DNA of 64,000 bases from Planctomycetaceae bacterium (lineage in GTDB: Bacteria > Planctomycetota > Planctomycetia > Pirellulales > Pirellulaceae), in the NCBI GenBank assembly GCA_018660825.1, contig JABJJO010000150.1, positions 1-64,000 of the forward strand, read 5' to 3'. Position 1 is the stretch's first letter. The number at the start of each line of letters is the position of its first letter. Both the position numbers and the translations under genes were made by a program. The notes below the pieces were generated by a model that was given only the letters and a program-made list of their open reading frames with translations, ran no database searches and had not been told where the DNA came from. Below, one piece after another: positions 28,374-43,923 of the stretch.

Positions 28374-29753
28374 TTAAAGGATGTAATTACTCAGATCTTC
28401 GTCATCGACCACGCTTTGCAATCGCTCCGCGACATACGCTTGATTTATTTCAACCCGCCCGAGATTAATTTCGGCTGCTTCGAAACTCAGTTCTTCTAAG
28501 ACACGCTCCAAAATAGTGTGCAGTCTCCGGGCGCCGATATTTTGAGCACGTTGATTTACCTCAAATGCATAATCCGCCAACGCCACAATAGCATCGTCAG
28601 TAAACACCAGTTCCACGCCCTCAGTGGCCAAAAGCGCGACGTACTGTTTGGCAAGGGAGTTTTTTGGTTCTGTTAGGATTCTCCGAAAATCATCACTAGT
28701 GAGATTGTCTAGTTCAACTCGGATTGGGAATCGCCCTTGTAACTCCGGCATCAAGTCGCTTGGTTTAGTCGCGTGAAACGCTCCGGCGGCGATGAAAAGC
28801 ACGTGGTCCGTTCGCACATACCCATATTTTGTCTGCACCGTCGTGCCCTCGACAATCGGTAATAAATCCCGCTGTACGCCTTGCCGCGAGACATCAGCAC
28901 TTTTCCCTTGAGTTCCGATAACTTTATCCATCTCATCGAGGAACACGATTCCCATATTTTCCGCGAGATCGATTGCCATCGCGTGAACTTTGTCGTCGTC
29001 TAGCAATTCATCACATTTCTGTTCAAGTAGCGTCACTCTCGCCTCGGCAACAGTCGCCTGCCGTTGCTGACTGTTCTTTGGCATCATCTTGTCCAGCATC
29101 CCCTGTAGGTCCATGTCTAAACCCTCCATGCCCATCCCACCAATCATCACCGGCGAGTTTTTTTGTTGAGTAGTGATTTCAATGGTTCGTTGGTCAAGTT
29201 CGCCAGCCAACAACATCGCTCGCATTTTTTCTCGTGTTCGCTGATATTGCGACTCAACATCCGATTGTTCACTTGCCTCGTCCGACCCCACTAACGGTGG
29301 TGGAGACACCAACATATCAAGCAATGTATTTTCAACAGCCGCTGCGGCGTGGTCCTCGATCTTAACTCGTTCTTGTTGGCGGACCAAAGCAATAGAATTA
29401 TCCAGCAACTCCCGCACCATGCTTTCCACGTCACGTCCGTAATAACCCACCTCCGTATACTTAGTGGCCTCCACCTTAATGAAAGGTGCGCCAGTGAGGC
29501 GCGCGAGTCTGCGAGCTATTTCAGTTTTCCCTACGCCCGTAGGCCCGCTCATCAAAATATTTTTCGGCGCTACCTCGTCTCGCATTGCTGGATCGATTTG
29601 TTGACGCCTCCATCGATTGCGGATAGCTACTGCGACGAATCGCTTGGCTAAGTCTTGTCCCACGATGAATGCATCAAGTTTTTCAACAATCTCCCGAGGT
29701 GTCAGATCACATCGAGGGCCGGCCGTTTTGGTTGAATTTGATAATTGCATCAT
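28374..29753 (-). CDS. hslU: ATP-dependent protease ATPase subunit HslU
   Basis: 459 residues. AAA+ motifs are Walker A GPTGVGKT and Walker [10 protein letters not shown]. Other family parts are [22 protein letters not shown] at the N-terminus, an inserted domain about 130-260, the sensor [11 protein letters not shown], and a C-terminal EDLSNYIL tail that docks into HslV (typical SRYIL). The pore loop reads EVGYYGRD, where GYVG is usual. HslU unfolds substrates and feeds them to the HslV peptidase. The start overlaps the end of hslV by 4 bases (ATGA), giving the order hslV-hslU, the usual operon. Confidence 0.96.
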
Positions 29754-30310
29754 GTCGTTGTCGATTCTAAAGTTTGGATAATTATGTTGTGATTTGTGTA
29801 AATATCTATATCGGCAGCGATGCCAAGTGCAGTTTCAACAATTTCCTGAGCCGTTAATTCTGAATGCCTGCACAACGCCGTCGCCGCCGCCATCGCATAA
29901 TTCCCACCCGATCCAATAGCCACAATTCCATCGGTCGGGCTGATCACATCACCAGTTCCGCTGACGAGCAGCGTGCTGCTGGGGTCCACTACAATCAACA
30001 TCGCCTCCAGTCGGCGTAACGCTCGGTCTGTTCGCCAGTCTTTGGCCAGTTCTGTTGCCGCGCGAGGCATATTCGCTGGGTGGTCCAACAACTTCGCCTC
30101 AAAGCGTTCCAACAAAGCAAATGCATCAGCACTAGATCCAGCGAAACCACAAAGTACCTTACCGTCAAGCAACGGTCGGATTTTACGGGCGTCGGATTTC
30201 ATGATAGCCGACCCTAAGGTGACTTGCCCATCGCCCCCCATCGCCACAATCCCCTGGTGACGAACCGCAAGGATCGTCGTCGCATGAAACGTTTCCGGCT
30301 TTTCACTCAT
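29750..30310 (-). CDS. hslV: ATP-dependent protease proteolytic subunit HslV
   Basis: 186 residues from the ATG at 30310 (a GTG at 30325 would add five residues). The sequence [20 protein letters not shown] shows a short propeptide before the catalytic Thr-Thr: cleavage would expose T in [33 protein letters not shown] and [11 protein letters not shown] are family hallmarks. A GGGGAG stretch precedes the ATG. The propeptide with HA before TT resembles the Bacillus ClpQ N-terminus more than the one-Met form of E. coli. It pairs with HslU through a 4-base overlap. Confidence 0.96.
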
Positions 30311-30541
30311 TAGCGAACTCCCCACCTACATAATATATTTAACATTAACGAGGGTTAATTTTACTTCCCAAACGGTAGCTGTTAGCAACAACACCGCTCC
30401 GGCCCTAGTTACTCTTATTGTGCAACGATAACAAATTGTCGTAAATAGGCGGCTTGGAAAAACCATGCATCTCGTAGTAAACTATTGGTACACGCAATAC
30501 ATCCGTCAAACGCCACTAAGCCTTGGATTTACGAACACATA

Positions 30542-32473: not shown

Positions 32474-33295
32474 TCAATCTTCTTTCAACGGTATCACTTT
32501 TACACCGTCACGACTGCGCAAATCTATTTCCGTCGGCTCACTACTAATCTGCAACGTTTTATTCGCGTGATAGAACGCAGTTAGCTCCGCCAGCTTTTCT
32601 GGAGCTATTTGCTCGTCAATGGTTTCCTTTCCTGGTTCACTCCCCCATAATACGCGAATTTCCGGACGCTCCTTCAAAATAACATAGTAAACGACCGTTG
32701 AATCGCGAGGGTTCATTGTCACCTCAATTCGATAAAGTCCCATTTCTTTCCAAGGAATGCCGTCAAATAAACCGGCCAATTTCGCCGCACCAACAACTTT
32801 CGAATCCCCCCAAGGATCCCCTACAAGACCACTTGGCCGCAAATGGTCGGCGGCGATTCGCAGGTAATTTGATATGTCATCTGCGGTGAAATCAGCAGGA
32901 GGCAAGACGGTACCTTCAGCGTCAATTGGTAAAACGTGGGGGCGATCGTCATATTTAACTTCGACCATTGCCACAGGTTTTCGAAAGTTGACGACAACAG
33001 CGACACCACTGGGGTTTTTCTCAACTAATTCAACGGAATTGATCCATGAATGTAACGTGAATGCATCCGCTAACTGTTTGGTTAAATTACTATCGTCCAA
33101 AAACAACTCTTCCAAATTGTGCTGTTTGATGACATCTCGTAGTACGTCTCCTCGGATCCAACTCGGTTGTTCGGGCGACAATTGTATGCGCTCAGTTCGC
33201 AACGCAAACTTGTCGCTATGCCGCAGACGCGATTGTCCAATTCCCCATATCGCCAACGCCCCAATCACAACAACGGCAATAAGGACGATGTCCAT
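32474..33295 (-). CDS. FtsQ/DivIB-like membrane protein
   Basis: 273 residues from the ATG at 33295, preceded by AGGGACGG; an ATG at 33328 is also possible. A single N-terminal helix (about 1-18) is followed by a POTRA-like segment: TKQLADAFTLHSWINSVELVEKNPSGVAVVVNFRKPVAMVEV, matching the pattern of the FtsQ POTRA domain (V-x-a-l-p-x-h-p-W-V-x-x-a-x-V-x-r-x-x-P-x-x-l). The bulk of the protein is beta-rich and periplasmic. It lies downstream of murB on the same strand, a dcw-like context. FtsQ recruits FtsB/FtsL in other phyla. Planctomycetes lack FtsZ, so its role would differ. Identification is by motif and context. Confidence 0.62.
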   Translation of the reverse strand: MDIVLIAVVVIGALAIWGIGQSRLRHSDKFALRTERIQLSPEQPSWIRGDVLRDVIKQHNLEELFLDDSNLTKQLADAFTLHSWINSVELVEKNPSGVAVVVNFRKPVAMVEVKYDDRPHVLPIDAEGTVLPPADFTADDISNYLRIAADHLRPSGLVGDPWGDSKVVGAAKLAGLFDGIPWKEMGLYRIEVTMNPRDSTVVYYVILKERPEIRVLWGSEPGKETIDEQIAPEKLAELTAFYHANKTLQISSEPTEIDLRSRDGVKVIPLKED

Positions 33296-33393
33296 TGTCC
33301 GTCCCTGACGACATACACGGATTCCCATAGTTATTGCGATCCCTCATTTAGCATGGTCGCACCTTCGCGACTTGAACTAGCCTGCTAACATGC

Positions 33394-34272
33394 CTACCAA
33401 ACTTCAATTTGTTTTTGAATGGACACACCCAACTGCGAATCCACTTCCGCTTGAATATGTGTCAGAAGTGCTACGGCATCGGCGCAAGTCGCGCCTTCGC
33501 CGACAATCATGTAATTTGCGTGTGAGTCACTGATCATAACACCGCCTTGTTTGAACCCTTTTAGACCGGCTTGCTCAATCAAACTTGCCGCTTTAATCCC
33601 ACCGTGATCCTGGAACATACATAAACTACGTTCCCGTCCCTGAGGTTGTTGCCCTTTATTTACGATCCACAACGTTTGCATTTTCCTCGTGATTTCGTTG
33701 GCGTCGGCTGGCTGCAAGTCAAACTCTGCCTCAAGGACTACCAAATCATTGAGCGATGACTTTCTATAGGAGAACCGCAATTCATCTCTACCGCGCGTTT
33801 GCAAGTCTCCCCCGCGGGTCAAAACCGTGACACTTGTCGTTCGCTGGCCTATGTCACCGCTATTTGTACCCGCATTAGTGCGGACAGCTCCACCAACCGT
33901 ACCAGGGATTCCCGCCAGTTGCTCCAAGCCCTCAAGTCCCTCGCGTGCTGCGGTCGATACCAATTGCACCAAAGCAGCGCCCCCTCCGGCCTTTAACGTA
34001 TTGCCCGCAACTTCGATATTAGAAAATGCTGCTGCGGACAAGTGGATAACAATTCCGGGAACAACGTCCGAACAAACAATCAGGTTAGAACCGCCGCCTA
34101 GAACGCGAATGGAAACTTCCTGCGCACTGCAAACCTTGACCAGTTCAATCAATTCCGCCTGAGATGTAGGTTCCGCAAAATATTCACAAGTACCACCAAA
34201 TCGCAGGCCTGTGAACGTGCTTAACGATTCCCCCGACCTGACGATATGTTCAAATCCACTAAAATCTACCAT
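33394..34272 (-). CDS. murB: UDP-N-acetylmuramate dehydrogenase MurB (type II)
   Basis: 292 residues. The FAD-binding segments are TGLRFGGTCEYFAEPTS, VLGGGSNLIVCSD, GLEGLEQLAGIPGTVGGAVRTNAG and RFSYRKSSL; the substrate region is LIEQAGLKG with SDSHANYMIV. At the position of the catalytic Ser of GS-x-F-x-N-P the sequence reads LCMFQD (Cys218). E290 in QIEVW could be the conserved Glu. It makes UDP-MurNAc for peptidoglycan. The Ser-to-Cys change is seen directly; whether it lowers activity is unknown. The neighbour downstream is FtsQ-like, upstream the kinase-Hsp70 fusion. Confidence 0.93.
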   Translation of the reverse strand: MVDFSGFEHIVRSGESLSTFTGLRFGGTCEYFAEPTSQAELIELVKVCSAQEVSIRVLGGGSNLIVCSDVVPGIVIHLSAAAFSNIEVAGNTLKAGGGAALVQLVSTAAREGLEGLEQLAGIPGTVGGAVRTNAGTNSGDIGQRTTSVTVLTRGGDLQTRGRDELRFSYRKSSLNDLVVLEAEFDLQPADANEITRKMQTLWIVNKGQQPQGRERSLCMFQDHGGIKAASLIEQAGLKGFKQGGVMISDSHANYMIVGEGATCADAVALLTHIQAEVDSQLGVSIQKQIEVW

Positions 34273-34394: not shown

Positions 34395-36935
34395 TTACAT
34401 CCCGCTACACAACATGACCGTTTCCACCCACTCCCGCCAGCGAAATAAGTCGACATTTTCCAAGCTCCCGGTTCTCGCGATGGGCACAGGGATACGTTGC
34501 TGGGATTCCCCAATTTGTGCTTCGACGGATAAACGACCGCTAACATCATAATAAAAAACAAGACCGATGGGAGTTTTCGCTGGCAAATTGGGGGGCAAAT
34601 TGTCGACGACGCATTTACCCAAATCAACACACTCATCTGGGTTGGCGCTTTCACCCTCGATTAGCGGTATTAGCAAATTTTGCTGATTGTCCTGATGCGT
34701 CTTCAAGATTTTTCTAATTTTAACCGGCCGCCTTGTGTCCTTAGGTAACACGATCGCATTGACGCGATCCCCAGTATTAACATTTGTTCCGAGCATCCCC
34801 AACGCTCGTGCGGTCACTGCCTCTACCTTTACACTTGGCGTCTCACCCGCGAGTATCGATTGCCGAATGCCCGCGAAAATCGCTGCGCCGTTCGCCACCG
34901 CTGATTCAGGCATTGACGCGATCGTCGCTTCAGGAAAACAACTCTCTACAATTTGTTTTACCATCGGCATCGAACTCGCGCCACCCGCTAACAACACTTT
35001 AGCTACATCTGATACTTGCAAATCCGCTGAGGCAACAACTCCGTCAATTATATCGCGTATTCTCTCTAGTAAGTCAACTGCCAATTCCTCGAGTTTCGCG
35101 CGGGTCAAAGTGACTGTCGTCGCCTTCGCCTTACCAGGAATCGTCACCAGAAGTTTAATTGTCTCAACTTCACCCAAACGTTCGCGAGCCCCTTTACAGC
35201 CTCGCATCAATTGCCGCGATTGTAACTCGTGATCGCGGGGGTCATATCCATAGGTCGCAACGAGCCCTTCACCTATCAAGTCCAATAGCAACTCATCGAA
35301 ATTGACACCGCCCAAATGCGCGTCGCCTTCACTCGATAACACGGTTAACACCCCATCGCCACACACCATCGCCGCGACATCTAACTTGCCAGCGCCAAGA
35401 TCCACGACAACTATTGTTTCGGCCTCCGCAGGCACAACACCGTCATAGAACGCCAAGGCACTCGCCACCGACTCATCGACTAGTTCCACGAGATCTAACC
35501 CAGCGATTTCAACGGCGTGTTGCATCGTTTCTCGACACACGGCGTCGAAGGTTGTTGGCACCGCCAATACTAGCTGCTTACACTGACCAACCACTCGTTG
35601 TACATCACTCGCCAACTTCGCTACCAACAAAGCAGCCAGTACAGAGGGTGGGTAGGACTGGCCTCCGATAGGGCCTGGGTACTTGGCTCGGCCCACATAC
35701 CGTTTTATCTCCTCACCAATACAATCTAAATTTTCACTACATCGTTCTACCGCCTTTTTGCCAATCGCGGTATCCATCGGGTCCACGATCAATACTGTGC
35801 TCGGTGTAAATGCGTCGCCGTCTGCATCAAGTACCGATTGACACATACCGCTCGTATTAACCCACGACACCCGGCATTTTTCGGTGCCGAAATCAACACC
35901 GACGGGGTAAGACTGCGTCAAATTTGCGCGGTATAGTTCTTCGCTAAAACTAGCGACATCATCGTCGTCGTTAGCCGCGAGTTCCTGTAATTCATTGCGA
36001 AACTCTAAAAGCGATGAATAACGATGAGCAGGATTTTTCGCGAGCATTTTTGCCAGTATGGTATCAACCCATGTGGGAATCTCCGGATTGGCCGCAGATA
36101 CTGACGGGATAGGCTTATTCGCATGTGCCATTAACGTCTGAATCATATCCCCTTGGTACAACGACTTACCGGTCAACAAATAGTAAAACGTGCAGCCCAG
36201 GCTATAGATATCACACCGGTGATCGACTGTATGGGGATCCTTCGCCTGCTCCGGCGACATATAATTGACCGTCCCCATGATCACGCCACTTTTTGTCAAC
36301 TCTTCTTCCGGCTGGTTACCGATCCGAGCCGTTCCCATGTCAAGCAATTTCACTTCACCGTCTACGTCAAGCATTAGATTGCTCGGTTTGATGTCACGGT
36401 GCACCATCCCACGATCGTGAGCATACTGTAACCCCACAGACGCTTGTTGAATGTACTCCATTCCCTTTTCCAGGTTAAACGGGCCGTGTTCCTTGACGAT
36501 CGCCGAAAGAGCCTGGCCGTCGACAAACTCCATTACCAGAAAATGTACGCCAGATTGCTCTCCCGCATCAAAGGCCGTAACTATATTTGGATGAAATAAC
36601 TGCGCGGCGGCCTTAACTTCTTGTCGAAACCGTTGAACCGCTTCAGGGTGCTTCATCATATTTGGTGGCAACACCTTCAGTGCCACTACGCGATCCATCC
36701 GGCTATGTCGTGCTTTAAACACCGTGCCCATTCCGCCGGCACCGATTTTTTTAAGTAGTACATAGTCCCCCAAAACCGGCAGCCTAGGCGACGCCTCATC
36801 GTCCCGCTCGGCCGTCGTGCCCACAGACGTTTCATCATCGTCGGTGTTATCACTTAGCGTTTCTGGCGCAGGAGCATGAAACCGAGTCTGATCCGGGTCT
36901 TCTAAGGCGTCGTCCTCAATTGGCTCGTCAGTCAC
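34395..36935 (-). CDS. Ser/Thr protein kinase fused to a lidless Hsp70 module
   Basis: 846 residues. Residues 1-54 are acidic. The kinase (about 55-320) has GAGGMG (65-70), Lys87, HRDIKPSN (179-186), DMG (199-201) and MSPEQ, all needed for activity. Residues 343-690 form an Hsp70 nucleotide-binding domain: phosphate-1 GVDFGTEK (346-353), LVELVDESVASALAF (481-), phosphate-2 DLGAGKLD (512-519), adenosine GGASSMPMV (651-). Residues about 710-805 match the beta substrate-binding domain (DNQ at 749-751, IEGES, LGK). There is no helical lid. The catalytic Lys70 and Thr199 of DnaK align with Val396 and Lys517, so ATP hydrolysis is doubtful. Most likely a peptide-sensing or client-regulated kinase; function untested. 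Confidence 0.93.
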   Translation of the reverse strand: MTDEPIEDDALEDPDQTRFHAPAPETLSDNTDDDETSVGTTAERDDEASPRLPVLGDYVLLKKIGAGGMGTVFKARHSRMDRVVALKVLPPNMMKHPEAVQRFRQEVKAAAQLFHPNIVTAFDAGEQSGVHFLVMEFVDGQALSAIVKEHGPFNLEKGMEYIQQASVGLQYAHDRGMVHRDIKPSNLMLDVDGEVKLLDMGTARIGNQPEEELTKSGVIMGTVNYMSPEQAKDPHTVDHRCDIYSLGCTFYYLLTGKSLYQGDMIQTLMAHANKPIPSVSAANPEIPTWVDTILAKMLAKNPAHRYSSLLEFRNELQELAANDDDDVASFSEELYRANLTQSYPVGVDFGTEKCRVSWVNTSGMCQSVLDADGDAFTPSTVLIVDPMDTAIGKKAVERCSENLDCIGEEIKRYVGRAKYPGPIGGQSYPPSVLAALLVAKLASDVQRVVGQCKQLVLAVPTTFDAVCRETMQHAVEIAGLDLVELVDESVASALAFYDGVVPAEAETIVVVDLGAGKLDVAAMVCGDGVLTVLSSEGDAHLGGVNFDELLLDLIGEGLVATYGYDPRDHELQSRQLMRGCKGARERLGEVETIKLLVTIPGKAKATTVTLTRAKLEELAVDLLERIRDIIDGVVASADLQVSDVAKVLLAGGASSMPMVKQIVESCFPEATIASMPESAVANGAAIFAGIRQSILAGETPSVKVEAVTARALGMLGTNVNTGDRVNAIVLPKDTRRPVKIRKILKTHQDNQQNLLIPLIEGESANPDECVDLGKCVVDNLPPNLPAKTPIGLVFYYDVSGRLSVEAQIGESQQRIPVPIARTGSLENVDLFRWREWVETVMLCSGM

Positions 36936-36976
36936 TGATTGATGCCTCCAATAGGTTGCGGCAGGTGAAAACTCGT

Positions 36977-39445
36977 CTACGCGATCGCGATGACACGCAA
37001 CCGCAAACTGTTAAATACAACTATTAGGCTTGAACAGGCCATCGCGCCAGCCGCCATCCTAGGTTGGATTTCAATTCCTACCGACACAAAACACCCAGCT
37101 GCAATGGGTATCAATGTAACATTATACAAAAAAGCCCAAAAGATGTTTTGTAGTATTATATTCCTTGTCCGATTGGATAAACGAATCGCTCGAGAAATCC
37201 CCCTCAATCCCGGTTTTAGCAGCACAATATCCGCTACCTCTGTCGCCAAATTTGCCCCTCTTGCTACTGCAATGCCCACATCCGCCGCAACGAGTGCAAT
37301 CGCGTCATTCACACCGTCACCGACCATCACAACAACGTTTCCCGTTGACTGTTTCTCCCGCACCAGTTTAACCTTATCCTCTGGTGCTAATCCAGCATGA
37401 ACATATTCAATTCCCACCCTGAACGCAACGTCATCTGCAATCCGTTGATTATCTCCAGTGGCCAGCATAACTTCTAACGACCCGCTCGTATCAACTTTGA
37501 CTCTGTCTATGTCCGCCTTTACACCAGGCAACAATTTCGCATCAAATTCAAAAATACCGGCAAATTCTCCATCTATTCCAACATAAGTGGAACCATTACT
37601 TTTTTGGGTAATCGTGCAAGACTCGAACGACTCACCAACTTGCGCCTCTACAAAATGCTTGGTGCCAATGGCAATTTGGTGGCCTTGTACCAAGCCAGAA
37701 ATCCCACCTCCTAAAACATGCTTAACGTCGCTTGCTGATTTCGCTGCCACATCCGCTCGGTTTCCATACGCCACAATGGCTAACGCCAAGGGATGATTAC
37801 ATTGTTTTTCAACGGCGACGATCATAGCAAGCACTTCGCCGTGCGCGTAAGTTTTTCTAGTGTCAATTAAGTCAAATGCCTTAACAGATATATCGCTAGC
37901 GGTAATCGTCCCAGTTTTGTCCAAAATCAAAGTCGTAACAGCGCCTAATTTCTCCATTACCAACGGGTTTGCGAACAATATCCCTTCGCGCACACTGCGA
38001 ACTGACATTACTAACAATGCCACCGGTGTGGCTAAACCAAGCGCGCATGGACAAGCGACCACTAATACCGATACGGCGTATTTCCATGCATTCTGCGCGT
38101 AACCCTCGGGTGCACCATGTCCAATGACCATCCATGCCACTAGGGTAACCAACGCTATGGCCAACAATCCTGGGACAAACCGTTGCACAATGCTGTCCGC
38201 TAGGGTTTGCAAGGGGATCTGGCTTTCCAGACCCTTCTCAAGAACTTGCGTCATTTTATGTAAGCGGTTGTCCGCTGGAGCCACGTCAACTTCGAGCGTA
38301 AGTAAATCAGTTCCGTTTACCGACCCTCCAAATACACGATCACCTCCACTCACGGCCCTTGGCGTGGACTCGCCTGTTAACCAAGATTGATTGACGGCTG
38401 ATTCACCACTGACAATTTTTCCGTCGGTTGGGACAACTTCACCTGGCCGTACAATGATTCGGTCGTTCACAACCAATTCGGAGGTAGGTACATCCTGCGT
38501 CTCATCACCGACAAGTAAGTGTGAGGTCTCGCAATTCATCACGTCAACCTTCGCGAATTCCTCCACGGTCGTTTGACGAGCTCGCACTTCAATCCATTTT
38601 CCAAAACTAACGAATGCCAAGATCATGGGCGCATCCATCAGCAAATGCGTTCCCGCCTCTTGAAAAACGAGTCCGCCTAAATACGCCGCCGTTGTCCCTA
38701 TGGCAATTAGCGTATCCATGTTTGATGCTCCCACTAGCGCCAACTTGAACGCATTTTTTAAGTAAATACCGCCGACCAGAACTTGCACACTAGTCGCAAT
38801 GAACACCGCGAACCACCAATGCTCTGCTGGACTTAATTGCAGTTGCTTTAAAGCAAACAACAGGCCAACGCCGACACCTGAAACCAACCACCGCTGTAGC
38901 CACATACTCTGATTCGAAGCATTTTCCGCGCGCAGCCGACGCAACACATCGTGCGGAGAAGAAATCAATTCAGCAGCATAACCTCGCTGAGTCAGCGCAT
39001 TCAGAATCGACGACGACCTAACATTGCTGTGCGAGATGACCGCTTGCCCCGTTATTAGACTTACGGATACGGAATTGACACCTGAGATACCCCGTATCGC
39101 ATCCCTGACAATAGTTACGCAACTACCACAGTGCATACCGGTAACGGTTACCCGAGTTATTCCCTCTAGTATTGTCGATTCCCCTTCCACTCCAGTAAAT
39201 ACGCCCTCTATTTCAACTGGACCGTCTGGGATTGCGTCTTTGGTCACGCATTCTGTTAACGCGTCATCGAAACAAGCAACCAGCGTTGCAGTATCAATCG
39301 AATCATCATCGCAATATACGAACACCTGCGCTGTCGACTCGATGAACGAAATCTCGACGACACCGCGCAAATCCCGTAGTGCCTTTTCAATGGCGACTGC
39401 GTTATAATAGTCAACGATTTGCTTATCTAATTCGATTACTTTCAT
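36977..39445 (-). CDS. copA: Copper-transporting P1B-type ATPase
   Basis: 822 residues from the ATG at 39445. The N-terminal segment (residues 1-80) is a degenerate heavy-metal-associated fold without CxxC. The second HMA domain has GMHCGSC (C106, C109). Eight membrane helices surround the CPCALG motif in helix 6. P-type motifs are TGES, DKTGTIT, the CNHPLA (HP locus), GDGVNDAIAL. The final helices carry NVTLIPIAAG and MACSSLIVVFNSLRL, which fit the YN and M-x-SS signatures of Cu+ ATPases. It should export Cu+ across the inner membrane. The kinase-Hsp70 gene starts 41 bases downstream, so they probably form one transcript. Confidence 0.95.
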   Translation of the reverse strand: MKVIELDKQIVDYYNAVAIEKALRDLRGVVEISFIESTAQVFVYCDDDSIDTATLVACFDDALTECVTKDAIPDGPVEIEGVFTGVEGESTILEGITRVTVTGMHCGSCVTIVRDAIRGISGVNSVSVSLITGQAVISHSNVRSSSILNALTQRGYAAELISSPHDVLRRLRAENASNQSMWLQRWLVSGVGVGLLFALKQLQLSPAEHWWFAVFIATSVQVLVGGIYLKNAFKLALVGASNMDTLIAIGTTAAYLGGLVFQEAGTHLLMDAPMILAFVSFGKWIEVRARQTTVEEFAKVDVMNCETSHLLVGDETQDVPTSELVVNDRIIVRPGEVVPTDGKIVSGESAVNQSWLTGESTPRAVSGGDRVFGGSVNGTDLLTLEVDVAPADNRLHKMTQVLEKGLESQIPLQTLADSIVQRFVPGLLAIALVTLVAWMVIGHGAPEGYAQNAWKYAVSVLVVACPCALGLATPVALLVMSVRSVREGILFANPLVMEKLGAVTTLILDKTGTITASDISVKAFDLIDTRKTYAHGEVLAMIVAVEKQCNHPLALAIVAYGNRADVAAKSASDVKHVLGGGISGLVQGHQIAIGTKHFVEAQVGESFESCTITQKSNGSTYVGIDGEFAGIFEFDAKLLPGVKADIDRVKVDTSGSLEVMLATGDNQRIADDVAFRVGIEYVHAGLAPEDKVKLVREKQSTGNVVVMVGDGVNDAIALVAADVGIAVARGANLATEVADIVLLKPGLRGISRAIRLSNRTRNIILQNIFWAFLYNVTLIPIAAGCFVSVGIEIQPRMAAGAMACSSLIVVFNSLRLRVIAIA

Positions 39446-39483
39446 GACTTGATCTATCAACAATAAGACAAAACCAACCAGCT

Positions 39484-40785: not shown

Positions 40786-43700
40786 CTATTTTTCTGTTGC
40801 GTCAACTGCCACGTCAGCAACCACGGGTGCTAGGAAAGTTACGATTGACTTTCCATCATCCGACCAGATCCGCACAACGCTGTCTTGACCGCCAGCAACG
40901 ATTGTCTTTCCATCAGCACTCACGCCAACGTTGTAGACGTAATCTGTCGCACCGGACAACGCTCGTACGTTGCCACCGTTGTCGGCCCGCTTGATATGTA
41001 CGTTTTTATCACCGCAAGACGCGACAACATTAACTGACAGTCCAGCAAATTGAATTGACGTAACCTCCTTAGCAAAACCACTAATCGTCCGTTGTTGATC
41101 GCCCGTACGGAAATCCCATAGTTTAATCACCTTGTCCGCACCTGCACTCGCCAATTGCCGCCCATCGGCACTCCAACCTACGCCAAGTACGTGATGTGTG
41201 TGCCCTTCAAATGCCCGCACAAATTCGCCATCAGACACTTGAAACACCTTAACAAAACGATCCGCACCACAAGTCGCAATATGCAGTCCATCAACTGAAA
41301 AACGAGCCGAAAAAATCGTGTCGGAGTGCGGGTCTTTAAACGACCGGATAAGTTTTCCATCCGCGACGCTGAAAATACTTAATTCTCCATTACGCGACGG
41401 TTCACCGCCTCCTGCTGCTAACAACTTACCATCACCACTAAAGTCAATCGCGGTCACTCTGTCCGTAAACACGCTTGCCCCGGTTTCTGAATCAATCGCC
41501 CTTGCCAATTTCCATTCGGAAATCGTTGACCACACCACGGCTGTCTTGTCTTGATGCAAAATCGCAACATTATCGCCTAGTGAAACTATCGCCTGTGACG
41601 CTGATTTCCCCTGGTATACTGAAATCGCGGCACCGTTCGTTGCATCAAAACTGGCTACAAAATGGTCCAACCCTCCGACAATCACTTGGGTCCCGTCCGT
41701 CGTGAAACTGACACTCGTATACCCTTGGTCGCCCTTCCCTAACTCTGCGGTTGCTTTCTCAGATTCATCCTTCGCTAACTTCGCGGCCGCCTCCTCCGAT
41801 TTATGCGCGGCGTCGTAACCCACAATCGAATCGGCTGCGTTAGTCACGGCCTTCTCTGCTCGCATGACACTACGCTTAGACGCCGCTAGAGTTCTATCTG
41901 CTGCAGCCTTCTCATCCTTTGCTTTTTGTGCAATTGGTACAGCCTTCTTTTGAGCAGCCTCAGCAGCTTTATGATCTGCGATCGCTTTGACTGCCGCTGC
42001 GTCGGCCGTCTTTTTATTTTCAACTGCCGCTTTAGAGGCTTCTGTCTTGCTCGCGATTTCAGCTGTCACTTTATCAACGTCCGCTTGTGCTACTTTTTTC
42101 TTTTCCTCATCCTCGCCCGCCGCCTTCAGGGCTGTTTGCGCTTTGATCAATGATTCCTGCGCGATTTTGACCGCCGCTGCCGTGTCGGTGACGCCTGTCT
42201 CCGCCGTCTTTTTAGCCGCGTCGCCATTAGTCTTAGTTTCAACTGCTTTTGCCAACGCTTCGTCTGCAGCCTTAAGGTCTGCGACGGGTTTAACTTCTGC
42301 TTCAGATTTAGCCTTGAGCGCCTCTTCTGCTTTTGTAAGTGCCTCTTTGACTTTCGTAAGATTGTCATCTTCCGACTTCTTGCGAGCATTGGCGGCGTCC
42401 AAGTCTTTCTTCGCCAACGCGCTGCGTGCAGCGGCCAAAGTACTAGCCCGACCGACCTTCGCTACATCTGTTTTAGCACGGTAATCACCACTCATTGAAG
42501 CAATCGCCTTACCGTCGGCGACGTTCCACAACTTAGCGGTTTTATCACTGCTCACAGAAGCGAGCTTGTCGCCGGTGGCGTTAACAGCAATGGCCGAGAT
42601 TGCGCCACCATGGGTAATCGCACGAATTTGTGCTCCTGTGGTGACATTCCAAATACGTACTGTCTTGTCAACGCTACCCGAAGCCAATTTCTCTGGCGCG
42701 TTAGAAAAACCGGCAAGCGAAGTAATTCGACCCGCGTGGCCTTTGAGTTCTTTGAGCGGCGGTTCAATTTCCGCGGTCGCCTCACCCTCTTTAGCTTCCA
42801 CCACCGCAGGACTTTTTACGTTCCACAGGCGCACAATATTATCCTCGCCGGCACTCGCGACTACCGTACCACCTGACACAAGTGCTACGGCATTGACGAC
42901 TGCTGGCGTTGTAATTGCGCGCACTTCCGTTAGCCCCGCGACATCCCAGACTTTGACCGTCTTATCCGCCCCCCCACTGACTATTTGATTACCGTCCGCA
43001 GCGAACGCCAACCCACGCACACCTCCTGCATGGGCAGCCGTGTTAGCGACAAACTTATTTTCCGCGACGTTCAGAATCTGTAACGAACCATCCTCAAACC
43101 CGATGCCCAATAATTTGCCGTCTGCAGTTTTGGCAACGGATGTAGGAACAGCAGATAACGCTGGAAGCGTAAATGCAATCCGATTATCATGGCGTTGCCA
43201 TATTTTCAAGGTGCGGTAGCCACCAGCTGCCACCATTGTACCGTCTGGACTGAAAGCAATCGATTGAACGATGTCCATGAAGGCAACGCCGGGGGAATCA
43301 TACACCCCAGATTCCATGATGGCGGGATCCGACAGTCGCCCTATTTCTGTGCGTGAAGGTATGTGATAAATAAATACCTGATTTGCTCGACCAGCAGCGG
43401 CATATTGTCCATCCGCACTAATCGCTACGGAATAAATTGGATTAACGCCCGCTGGCAGTGGCTGCCATTTTACTGGACCACGTGTTCCCAGAACTTCACC
43501 CTTCGCTCCCTGGTCAATCCAAAGTTTAATAAGACCGAGTTCCTTAGGCGTGAGACTTTTCGCGCCGACGTCGTTGTCATCTGGTGGCATATATGATTCT
43601 TGTGCACGCGAGGCAAGCTTAATGAGAAGACTCTCGGAACCCTTCCCTGCGACGATCGCAGGACCGTCAATCCCACCCACACGAAGTGTCGCAGGGGTTT

Positions 43701-43923
43701 CCATAATAAGACCGCTCTCCGCTTCAGCGGCGTTATGGCAGGCCAGACAGTTACGCCGTAAAATAGGTAAGATTTCTTTTTCGAAATCCACATCATCTTT
43801 TCTATTAATCTCAGTTATTTCAATTGCTTCGTCTTCTGCAGTTGAGAAACCACCCGAACTCAAATAGCACCCCATAAAAAGGGAAACAAATACGTAGCGG
43901 CGTGTTGCAACAATTAGGTTCAT
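40786..43923 (-). CDS. PSCyt1 + WD40 protein with central coiled-coil insert
   Basis: 1045 residues. A signal peptide or anchor (1-29) is followed by a PSCyt1 heme c domain with CLACH (C59-C62-H63) and GPAIVAGKGSESLLIKL, MPP and a KLWIDQGA ending. WD40 repeats follow in two blocks: about 145-480 (VAISADGQYAAAG, IVSGGADKTVKVWDV, LASGSVDKTVRIWNV) and about 735-1035 (ISFTTDG, IATCGADRFVKVF, LASAGADKVIKLWDF). Between them, residues about 482-728 are Ala/Lys/Glu-rich coiled coil. A split propeller joined by a long coil is unusual. The PPC protein gene 83 bases upstream on the same strand is probably its partner. Confidence 0.9.
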   Translation of the reverse strand: MNLIVATRRYVFVSLFMGCYLSSGGFSTAEDEAIEITEINRKDDVDFEKEILPILRRNCLACHNAAEAESGLIMETPATLRVGGIDGPAIVAGKGSESLLIKLASRAQESYMPPDDNDVGAKSLTPKELGLIKLWIDQGAKGEVLGTRGPVKWQPLPAGVNPIYSVAISADGQYAAAGRANQVFIYHIPSRTEIGRLSDPAIMESGVYDSPGVAFMDIVQSIAFSPDGTMVAAGGYRTLKIWQRHDNRIAFTLPALSAVPTSVAKTADGKLLGIGFEDGSLQILNVAENKFVANTAAHAGGVRGLAFAADGNQIVSGGADKTVKVWDVAGLTEVRAITTPAVVNAVALVSGGTVVASAGEDNIVRLWNVKSPAVVEAKEGEATAEIEPPLKELKGHAGRITSLAGFSNAPEKLASGSVDKTVRIWNVTTGAQIRAITHGGAISAIAVNATGDKLASVSSDKTAKLWNVADGKAIASMSGDYRAKTDVAKVGRASTLAAARSALAKKDLDAANARKKSEDDNLTKVKEALTKAEEALKAKSEAEVKPVADLKAADEALAKAVETKTNGDAAKKTAETGVTDTAAAVKIAQESLIKAQTALKAAGEDEEKKKVAQADVDKVTAEIASKTEASKAAVENKKTADAAAVKAIADHKAAEAAQKKAVPIAQKAKDEKAAADRTLAASKRSVMRAEKAVTNAADSIVGYDAAHKSEEAAAKLAKDESEKATAELGKGDQGYTSVSFTTDGTQVIVGGLDHFVASFDATNGAAISVYQGKSASQAIVSLGDNVAILHQDKTAVVWSTISEWKLARAIDSETGASVFTDRVTAIDFSGDGKLLAAGGGEPSRNGELSIFSVADGKLIRSFKDPHSDTIFSARFSVDGLHIATCGADRFVKVFQVSDGEFVRAFEGHTHHVLGVGWSADGRQLASAGADKVIKLWDFRTGDQQRTISGFAKEVTSIQFAGLSVNVVASCGDKNVHIKRADNGGNVRALSGATDYVYNVGVSADGKTIVAGGQDSVVRIWSDDGKSIVTFLAPVVADVAVDATEK

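Follow-up and report, generated by a model that had tools for sequence, protein, structure and literature searches.

A Ser/Thr kinase fused to an Hsp70 module with an altered ATPase site in Pirellulaceae-like planctomycetes

A gene in a 64,000-nucleotide stretch of Planctomycetaceae bacterium DNA (contig JABJJO010000150.1, positions 1 to 64,000; hereafter the window) joins a Ser/Thr kinase to an Hsp70 module, which raises the question of what an Hsp70 with changed catalytic residues does on a kinase. An initial annotation, made from the sequence alone, had proposed that the Hsp70 part holds nucleotide and peptide without hydrolysing ATP and so controls the kinase, and had suggested that the structure be predicted and that such fusions be counted across genomes; both were done.

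Domain layout and predicted structure

The region 34395..36935 was read as one 846-residue ORF on the minus strand (36935-34395), the plus strand being stop-rich, and the ORF call, Pfam and full-length orthologues define it as a whole kinase-Hsp70 fusion with a GTG start. By direct reading, a GGAGG at 36945..36949 on the same strand, about 10 bases 5' of the GTG, is the likely ribosome-binding site. All features of the protein given below are likewise on the minus strand. Pfam matched Pkinase to residues 58-307 (36015..36764, E 4.5e-52) and HSP70 to the second part (E 1.4e-66), and a PDB sequence search paired the first part with StkP/PknB, its closest solved chains, and the second with DnaK. 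The Gly-rich loop, the VAxK Lys (Lys87), the alpha-C Glu, HRD (179-181), DMG as DxG (199-201) and the PE of APE were all present, in agreement with the intact Lys87, HRD and DMG described at first. The kinase domain thus belongs to the Hanks-type family of PknB and StkP, while the window protein lacks a transmembrane or PASTA part and has the Hsp70 module instead.

The kinase is preceded by an N-terminal tail (residues 1-50, 36786..36935), disordered in the model (pLDDT below 50 for residues 1-47), with two acidic Thr motifs, DPDQTRF and DDDETSVG, found in the alignments. These motifs are conserved in the genus as D(Q/E)TR(F/L) and D(D/P)DET, and by their sequence they resemble phospho-acceptor or FHA-binding sites. 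A flexible linker (residues 321-341, 35913..35975; pLDDT below 50 for 323-340) leads to the Hsp70 nucleotide-binding domain (NBD, residues ~342-700, 34836..35912; Pfam HSP70 and structural match to DnaK), which is followed by SBDbeta (residues ~701-825, 34461..34835; Pfam and alignments) and by a C-terminal helix (residues 826-846, 34398..34460) that ends ...WREWVETVMLCSGM.

The AF2 model of the fusion (mean pLDDT 82, pTM 0.71) consisted of two folded parts with the flexible segment 323-340 between them. Residues 341-846 superposed on ATP-state DnaK 2-528 (4b9q_D) at 1.8 A over 484 residues with Z 48.6, so the kinase, NBD and SBDbeta that had been proposed in a single frame were confirmed by the ORF, Pfam and the superposition. 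Past SBDbeta the model held one helix (827-845, about 19 residues), which corresponds to the first lid helix, the DnaK match running to residue 528, and the rest of the SBDalpha helical lid was missing. The annotated absence of the lid is therefore right beyond helix A, which itself remains and closes the DnaK-like module. Lid loss was rejected as a trait specific to the fusion, as stand-alone Hsp70s of the same planctomycete subfamily, with their canonical ATPase site, stop at that point too. The inter-domain linker reads VKVEA in the window protein as against the canonical VLLLD, and it is altered in the stand-alone relatives too. AF2 placed the NBD and SBD in a docked, ATP-like arrangement; a canonical stand-alone Hsp70 from the same genome, modelled as a control, also came out nearer to the docked than to the ADP state, at lower confidence, and the model was accordingly rejected as evidence for an ATP-locked conformation.

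Hsp110 (Sse1) also has a divergent Hsp70-like fold and superposed on the module with a Z of about 45, but with 20% identity and a larger rmsd than DnaK. Membership of Hsp110 was rejected, since that group has an extended SBD with a large helical region and the window protein has a single helix of ~19 residues after SBDbeta.

SBDbeta carries a Cys-x5-Cys pair (Cys769/Cys775) that is kept in most fusions with a canonical ATPase site and in the clade of the window protein, where a tail Cys, Cys843, is present in 10/10 proteins; the three cysteines lie within about 34407-34631. The first Cys of the pair is a Trp in all 49 fusions that have lost the ATPase site. A redox or metal site is possible from the sequence, a heavy-metal ATPase gene being adjacent.

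The ATPase site and its three states

Residues were mapped with HMMER against DnaK chains, a MAFFT alignment of the orthologues and a MAFFT alignment of 97 Hsp70 sequences including the genome's own DnaK, and all three agreed on the assignments of Lys411, Lys517 and Glu352. The catalytic Lys70 of DnaK is retained as Lys411 (35703..35705) and does not fall on Val396, as had been annotated, because the query IKRYVGR aligns with DnaK IKR(F)IGR. DnaK Glu171 and Asp201 are kept as Glu488 (35472..35474) and Asp519, and in the segment DLGAGK (residues 512-517, 35385..35402) Asp512 occupies the position of Asp194, also kept, while Lys517 occupies that of Thr199. Compared with DnaK-type Hsp70s, the window protein has K70, E171 and D194 and lacks the Thr199 of the GGGT loop. 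The other two annotated changes, Thr199 to Lys517 and Thr12 to Glu352 (35880..35882), were both upheld by HMMER and MAFFT. The first was found in 10/10 proteins of the window clade, down to 31% Hsp70 identity, and the second is private to the window protein, the orthologues having T, S, A or G at that variable position. Adenine-contact positions were changed as well, in the ExxKRxxxS helix and at the Arg of GGxTR.

T199 has been described as universally conserved and essential (PMC13012618, PMC9691929), simulations place it in contact with the gamma-phosphate (PMC13012618), and DnaK T199A and BiP T229G still bind ATP while losing at least 95% of hydrolysis (PMC9691929). Since substitutions at this position have that effect, T199K should cripple ATP hydrolysis in the window module; slow hydrolysis is possible, K70, E171 and D194 being kept. 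Nucleotide binding is uncertain because the adenine-contact residues are eroded, and the module may bind no nucleotide whatever, which makes the first half of the original proposal doubtful. Its second half, that ATP is not hydrolysed, gains at the sequence level from T199K and from relatives that have lost the whole site, and loses from the retention of Lys70.

The Hsp70 parts of 82 fusions were aligned and 80 were classified, two truncated ones being omitted. Three states were observed: canonical, with K70, E171, D194 and T199 (21 fusions); T199K, with K70, E171, D194 and D201 all retained (10, the window clade); and dead, in which K70, E171, D194 and T199 are all lost (49), for example E171 to Arg or Lys, D194 to Ser, His, Met or Gly, and K70 to Pro or Gln. 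The kinase motifs were intact across all 80 in every state, truncated rows excepted, and the 12 stand-alone relatives readable in the alignment were all canonical.

In a quick Hsp70 tree, built without bootstraps, the dead proteins formed one clade (SH-aLRT 100) and the T199K proteins another (88), the two being sisters (91; 92-93 in a thinned set). Their grouping is supported by a Trp-x-x-Trp in the last helix, W833 and W836, which was present in 59/59 T199K and dead proteins and whose second Trp does not characterise the canonical fusions. An order in which T199K arose first and the dead state later was not supported, as the two clades are sisters and not ancestor and descendant. A single clade for all fusions of the family was not rejected (p-AU 0.373). 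The T199K and dead kinases did not group together in the kinase tree, with its long branches and sparse sampling of non-fused kinases, and two fusions from other families (L011, L029) stood apart in both trees.

The substrate groove also differed between the clades. T199K proteins keep Q433 and are hydrophobic at the positions of V436, I438 and F426, so that their groove could take peptide, while the dead clade has partly lost the canonical residues, for instance Q433 and V436. Because of this loss, docking through other surfaces seems more likely in the dead clade, and peptide binding may not be a function common to all fusions.

Distribution and gene neighbourhood

The fusion was present in six further genomes of the window's genus and in sister genera, and was not found in two genus members with genomes 69% and 89% complete. 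Named records of the relatives come from marine or environmental MAGs and bear the labels Pirellulaceae, Planctomycetaceae, Pirellulales or Rhodopirellula sp. The count across genomes, made with a profile built from twelve fusions and run over 241 genomes of the same, Pirellulaceae-like family, showed the fusion to be common there: roughly 125 of the 241 gave a single match across both domains, among the matches listed. A phylum-wide sample of 392 genomes gave full-length matches only in two other family members and one outsider, which suggests that the architecture is concentrated in this family. No relative was found in viral contigs. Three dead-clade fusions, L103, L117 and L118 (G521, G522, G511), have two tandem kinase domains before the pseudo-Hsp70; in L115 and L137 (G021, G612) the catalytic residues are canonical, the Hsp70 match is split into NBD and SBD, and the branch lies apart from the family's other fusions.

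On the minus strand, the fusion gene follows a heavy-metal P-type ATPase (E1-E2 ATPase, HMA; 36977..39463) after 41 bases and precedes murB (33394..34272) and a conserved gene without a Pfam match (32474..33328), as assigned by Pfam and synteny. The genus and G628 share this order, inside a larger block with HslV and an aminotransferase; in the window this block includes an HslV-like protease subunit (29750-30325, minus strand) and its neighbour at 28374-29753 (minus strand). The fusion is found again, intact, in separately assembled genomes of the genus and its sister genera, and synteny is kept in the genus; it is therefore not a product of chance or of faulty assembly. Among the other fusions examined, no conserved operon partner was found beyond the genus and sister genera, and the neighbourhood therefore gives no general clue to function. 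Elsewhere on the minus strand (40786-43923), the window encodes a protein with a haem-type CLACH motif and two sets of WD40 repeats separated by a long Ala/Lys-rich helical stretch.

Besides the fusion, the genome of the window encodes DnaK and two further Hsp70s. L023 (G000:C76) is a second short Hsp70 in this genome, of divergent sequence, with 523 residues, a canonical site and a different C-terminus.

A 'Kinase + HSP70' protein of Pirellula sp. (Rhodopirellula baltica), gi|32474490, was reported by Krupa & Srinivasan in 2005 in one sentence and a table line (PMC1262709). It has the same domain order and comes from the same bacterial group, and it is prior art for the architecture; the account contains no residue analysis, distribution or mechanism. 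The initial annotation had allowed that the fusion and its activity might already be described: the bare architecture has been known since 2005, while stepwise loss of the ATPase in such fusions was found in none of the open-access papers searched, and the main text of a recent census of planctomycete kinases has no mention of Hsp70 (PMC11032199). An intact kinase joined to an Hsp70 whose ATPase is altered, and in many relatives lost outright, appears to be a new form of this known architecture.

The role of the Hsp70 module on an intact kinase

On balance, and with modest confidence, we lean towards an active kinase with a pseudo-Hsp70 that serves as a regulatory or docking module without an ATPase cycle and works somewhat in the manner of Ssz1. 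A cytosolic Hanks-type kinase, predicted to be active, would carry a lidless Hsp70 where an ordinary sensor domain would sit. Judging from known families, the module would not run a DnaK-like ATPase cycle and would act as a static docking domain for proteins or peptides, whose likely contacts are the groove of SBDbeta and the conserved WxxW helix of the tail; it might restrain the kinase until a partner or an unfolded segment binds, or it might deliver substrates to it. The main argument for such a role is that the kinase is intact and the Hsp70 conserved yet non-catalytic, and it fits with relatives in which nothing of the ATPase site is left and the kinase is still intact. The same genome has DnaK and two other Hsp70s to do the work of chaperones, which was counted as further support.

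Ssz1, of the ribosome-associated complex, is lidless, lacks the canonical linker, binds ATP without hydrolysing it and serves as a docking and regulatory partner (PMC10191838). The window protein, known from sequence and model, likewise lacks the lid and the canonical linker, and the likeness is one of working only; Ssz1 is eukaryotic, has a J-protein partner and no fused kinase, and binds ATP, which is uncertain for the window protein. With DnaK and BiP the window module shares the fold, the docked NBD-SBD arrangement and K70, E171, D194 and D201, and it differs from them at T199, at the adenine site and in linker and lid. The stand-alone lidless planctomycete Hsp70s (L015-L019, L022, L032) belong to the same subfamily and share the truncation after helix A, the non-canonical linker and mostly the Cys pair, but have a canonical ATPase site, no kinase and no WxxW tail. 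This lidless subfamily as a whole (stand-alone relatives L015-L019, L022) lacks DnaK Arg167 and the VLLLD linker, both of which serve in J-protein coupling, though its ATPase site is canonical.

A more ambitious reading, which we put forward tentatively and rather doubt, is that in Pirellulaceae-like planctomycetes a whole family of active kinases uses a pseudo-Hsp70, which lost its ATPase step by step, as an inbuilt sensor for peptides that are unfolded or belong to a partner; these kinases would then be bacterial, single-chain equivalents of the stress kinases that an Hsp70 restrains. Unfolded-protein sensing by BiP-IRE1 and PERK has been described (PMC5756023, PMC6996924). The likeness lies in the idea of an Hsp70 that restrains a kinase until unfolded protein appears, and is an analogy only, since in those systems the Hsp70 is active and the parts are split between two proteins across the ER membrane, and in the window protein a single chain holds both and the ATPase is altered.

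One alternative gives the Hsp70 part no task beyond that of a scaffold or dimerisation platform: NBD-SBD contacts from one copy to another would pair the kinases for trans-autophosphorylation, without sensing of peptide or nucleotide. It is favoured by the activation of PknB-like kinases through dimers, and by a module that has kept its fold, surface and tail although the active site and, in the dead clade, groove residues such as Q433 and V436 are gone. We regard it as unlikely, since the T199K clade keeps Q433, a hydrophobic groove and much of the ATPase site, beyond what a bare scaffold needs. It is quite improbable, in our judgement, that the module is a slow yet working ATPase chaperone that phosphorylates its clients, with Lys517 merely tuning the rate: K70, E171, D194 and D201 are kept throughout the T199K clade and fusions with a fully canonical site exist, but the residue replaced is the one held to be universal and essential, the adenine-contact residues and linker are altered too, and the closest Hsp70 relatives have lost the site entirely.

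Selection on the module was estimated from dN/dS. Between the window protein and L002 the ratios were 0.030 for the kinase, 0.134 for the NBD and 0.058 for the SBD, with zero changes in the tail, all rough as dS was near 1; the NBD gave 0.053 between L003 and L007 and 0.036-0.115 in close pairs of dead proteins. The tail helix was identical within the genus pairs compared, where the NBD drifts to 69-75%. Because these ratios are far below 1 in both the T199K and the dead clades, the altered NBDs are under purifying selection and not in decay: the Hsp70 modules are kept by selection, and it is the ATPase site that was released. That the module is a functionless, decaying passenger on an ordinary kinase is thus highly improbable. 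In favour of it, the rate of change of the NBD in the window's genus is several times that of the kinase; against it, the reading frames are unbroken and NBD, SBD and tail all have dN/dS values far under 1.

Pseudo-enzymes turned regulators are well known among kinases, while Hsp70s without ATPase are rare, Ssz1 being the standard case. The fusions provide a large bacterial set, from many sequenced species, in which the same intact kinase bears an Hsp70 module that is canonical, T199K or dead. With this set it can be tested directly what an Hsp70 fold is capable of once ATP hydrolysis is gone, and whether or not bacteria wire the state of protein folding straight into Ser/Thr phosphorylation.
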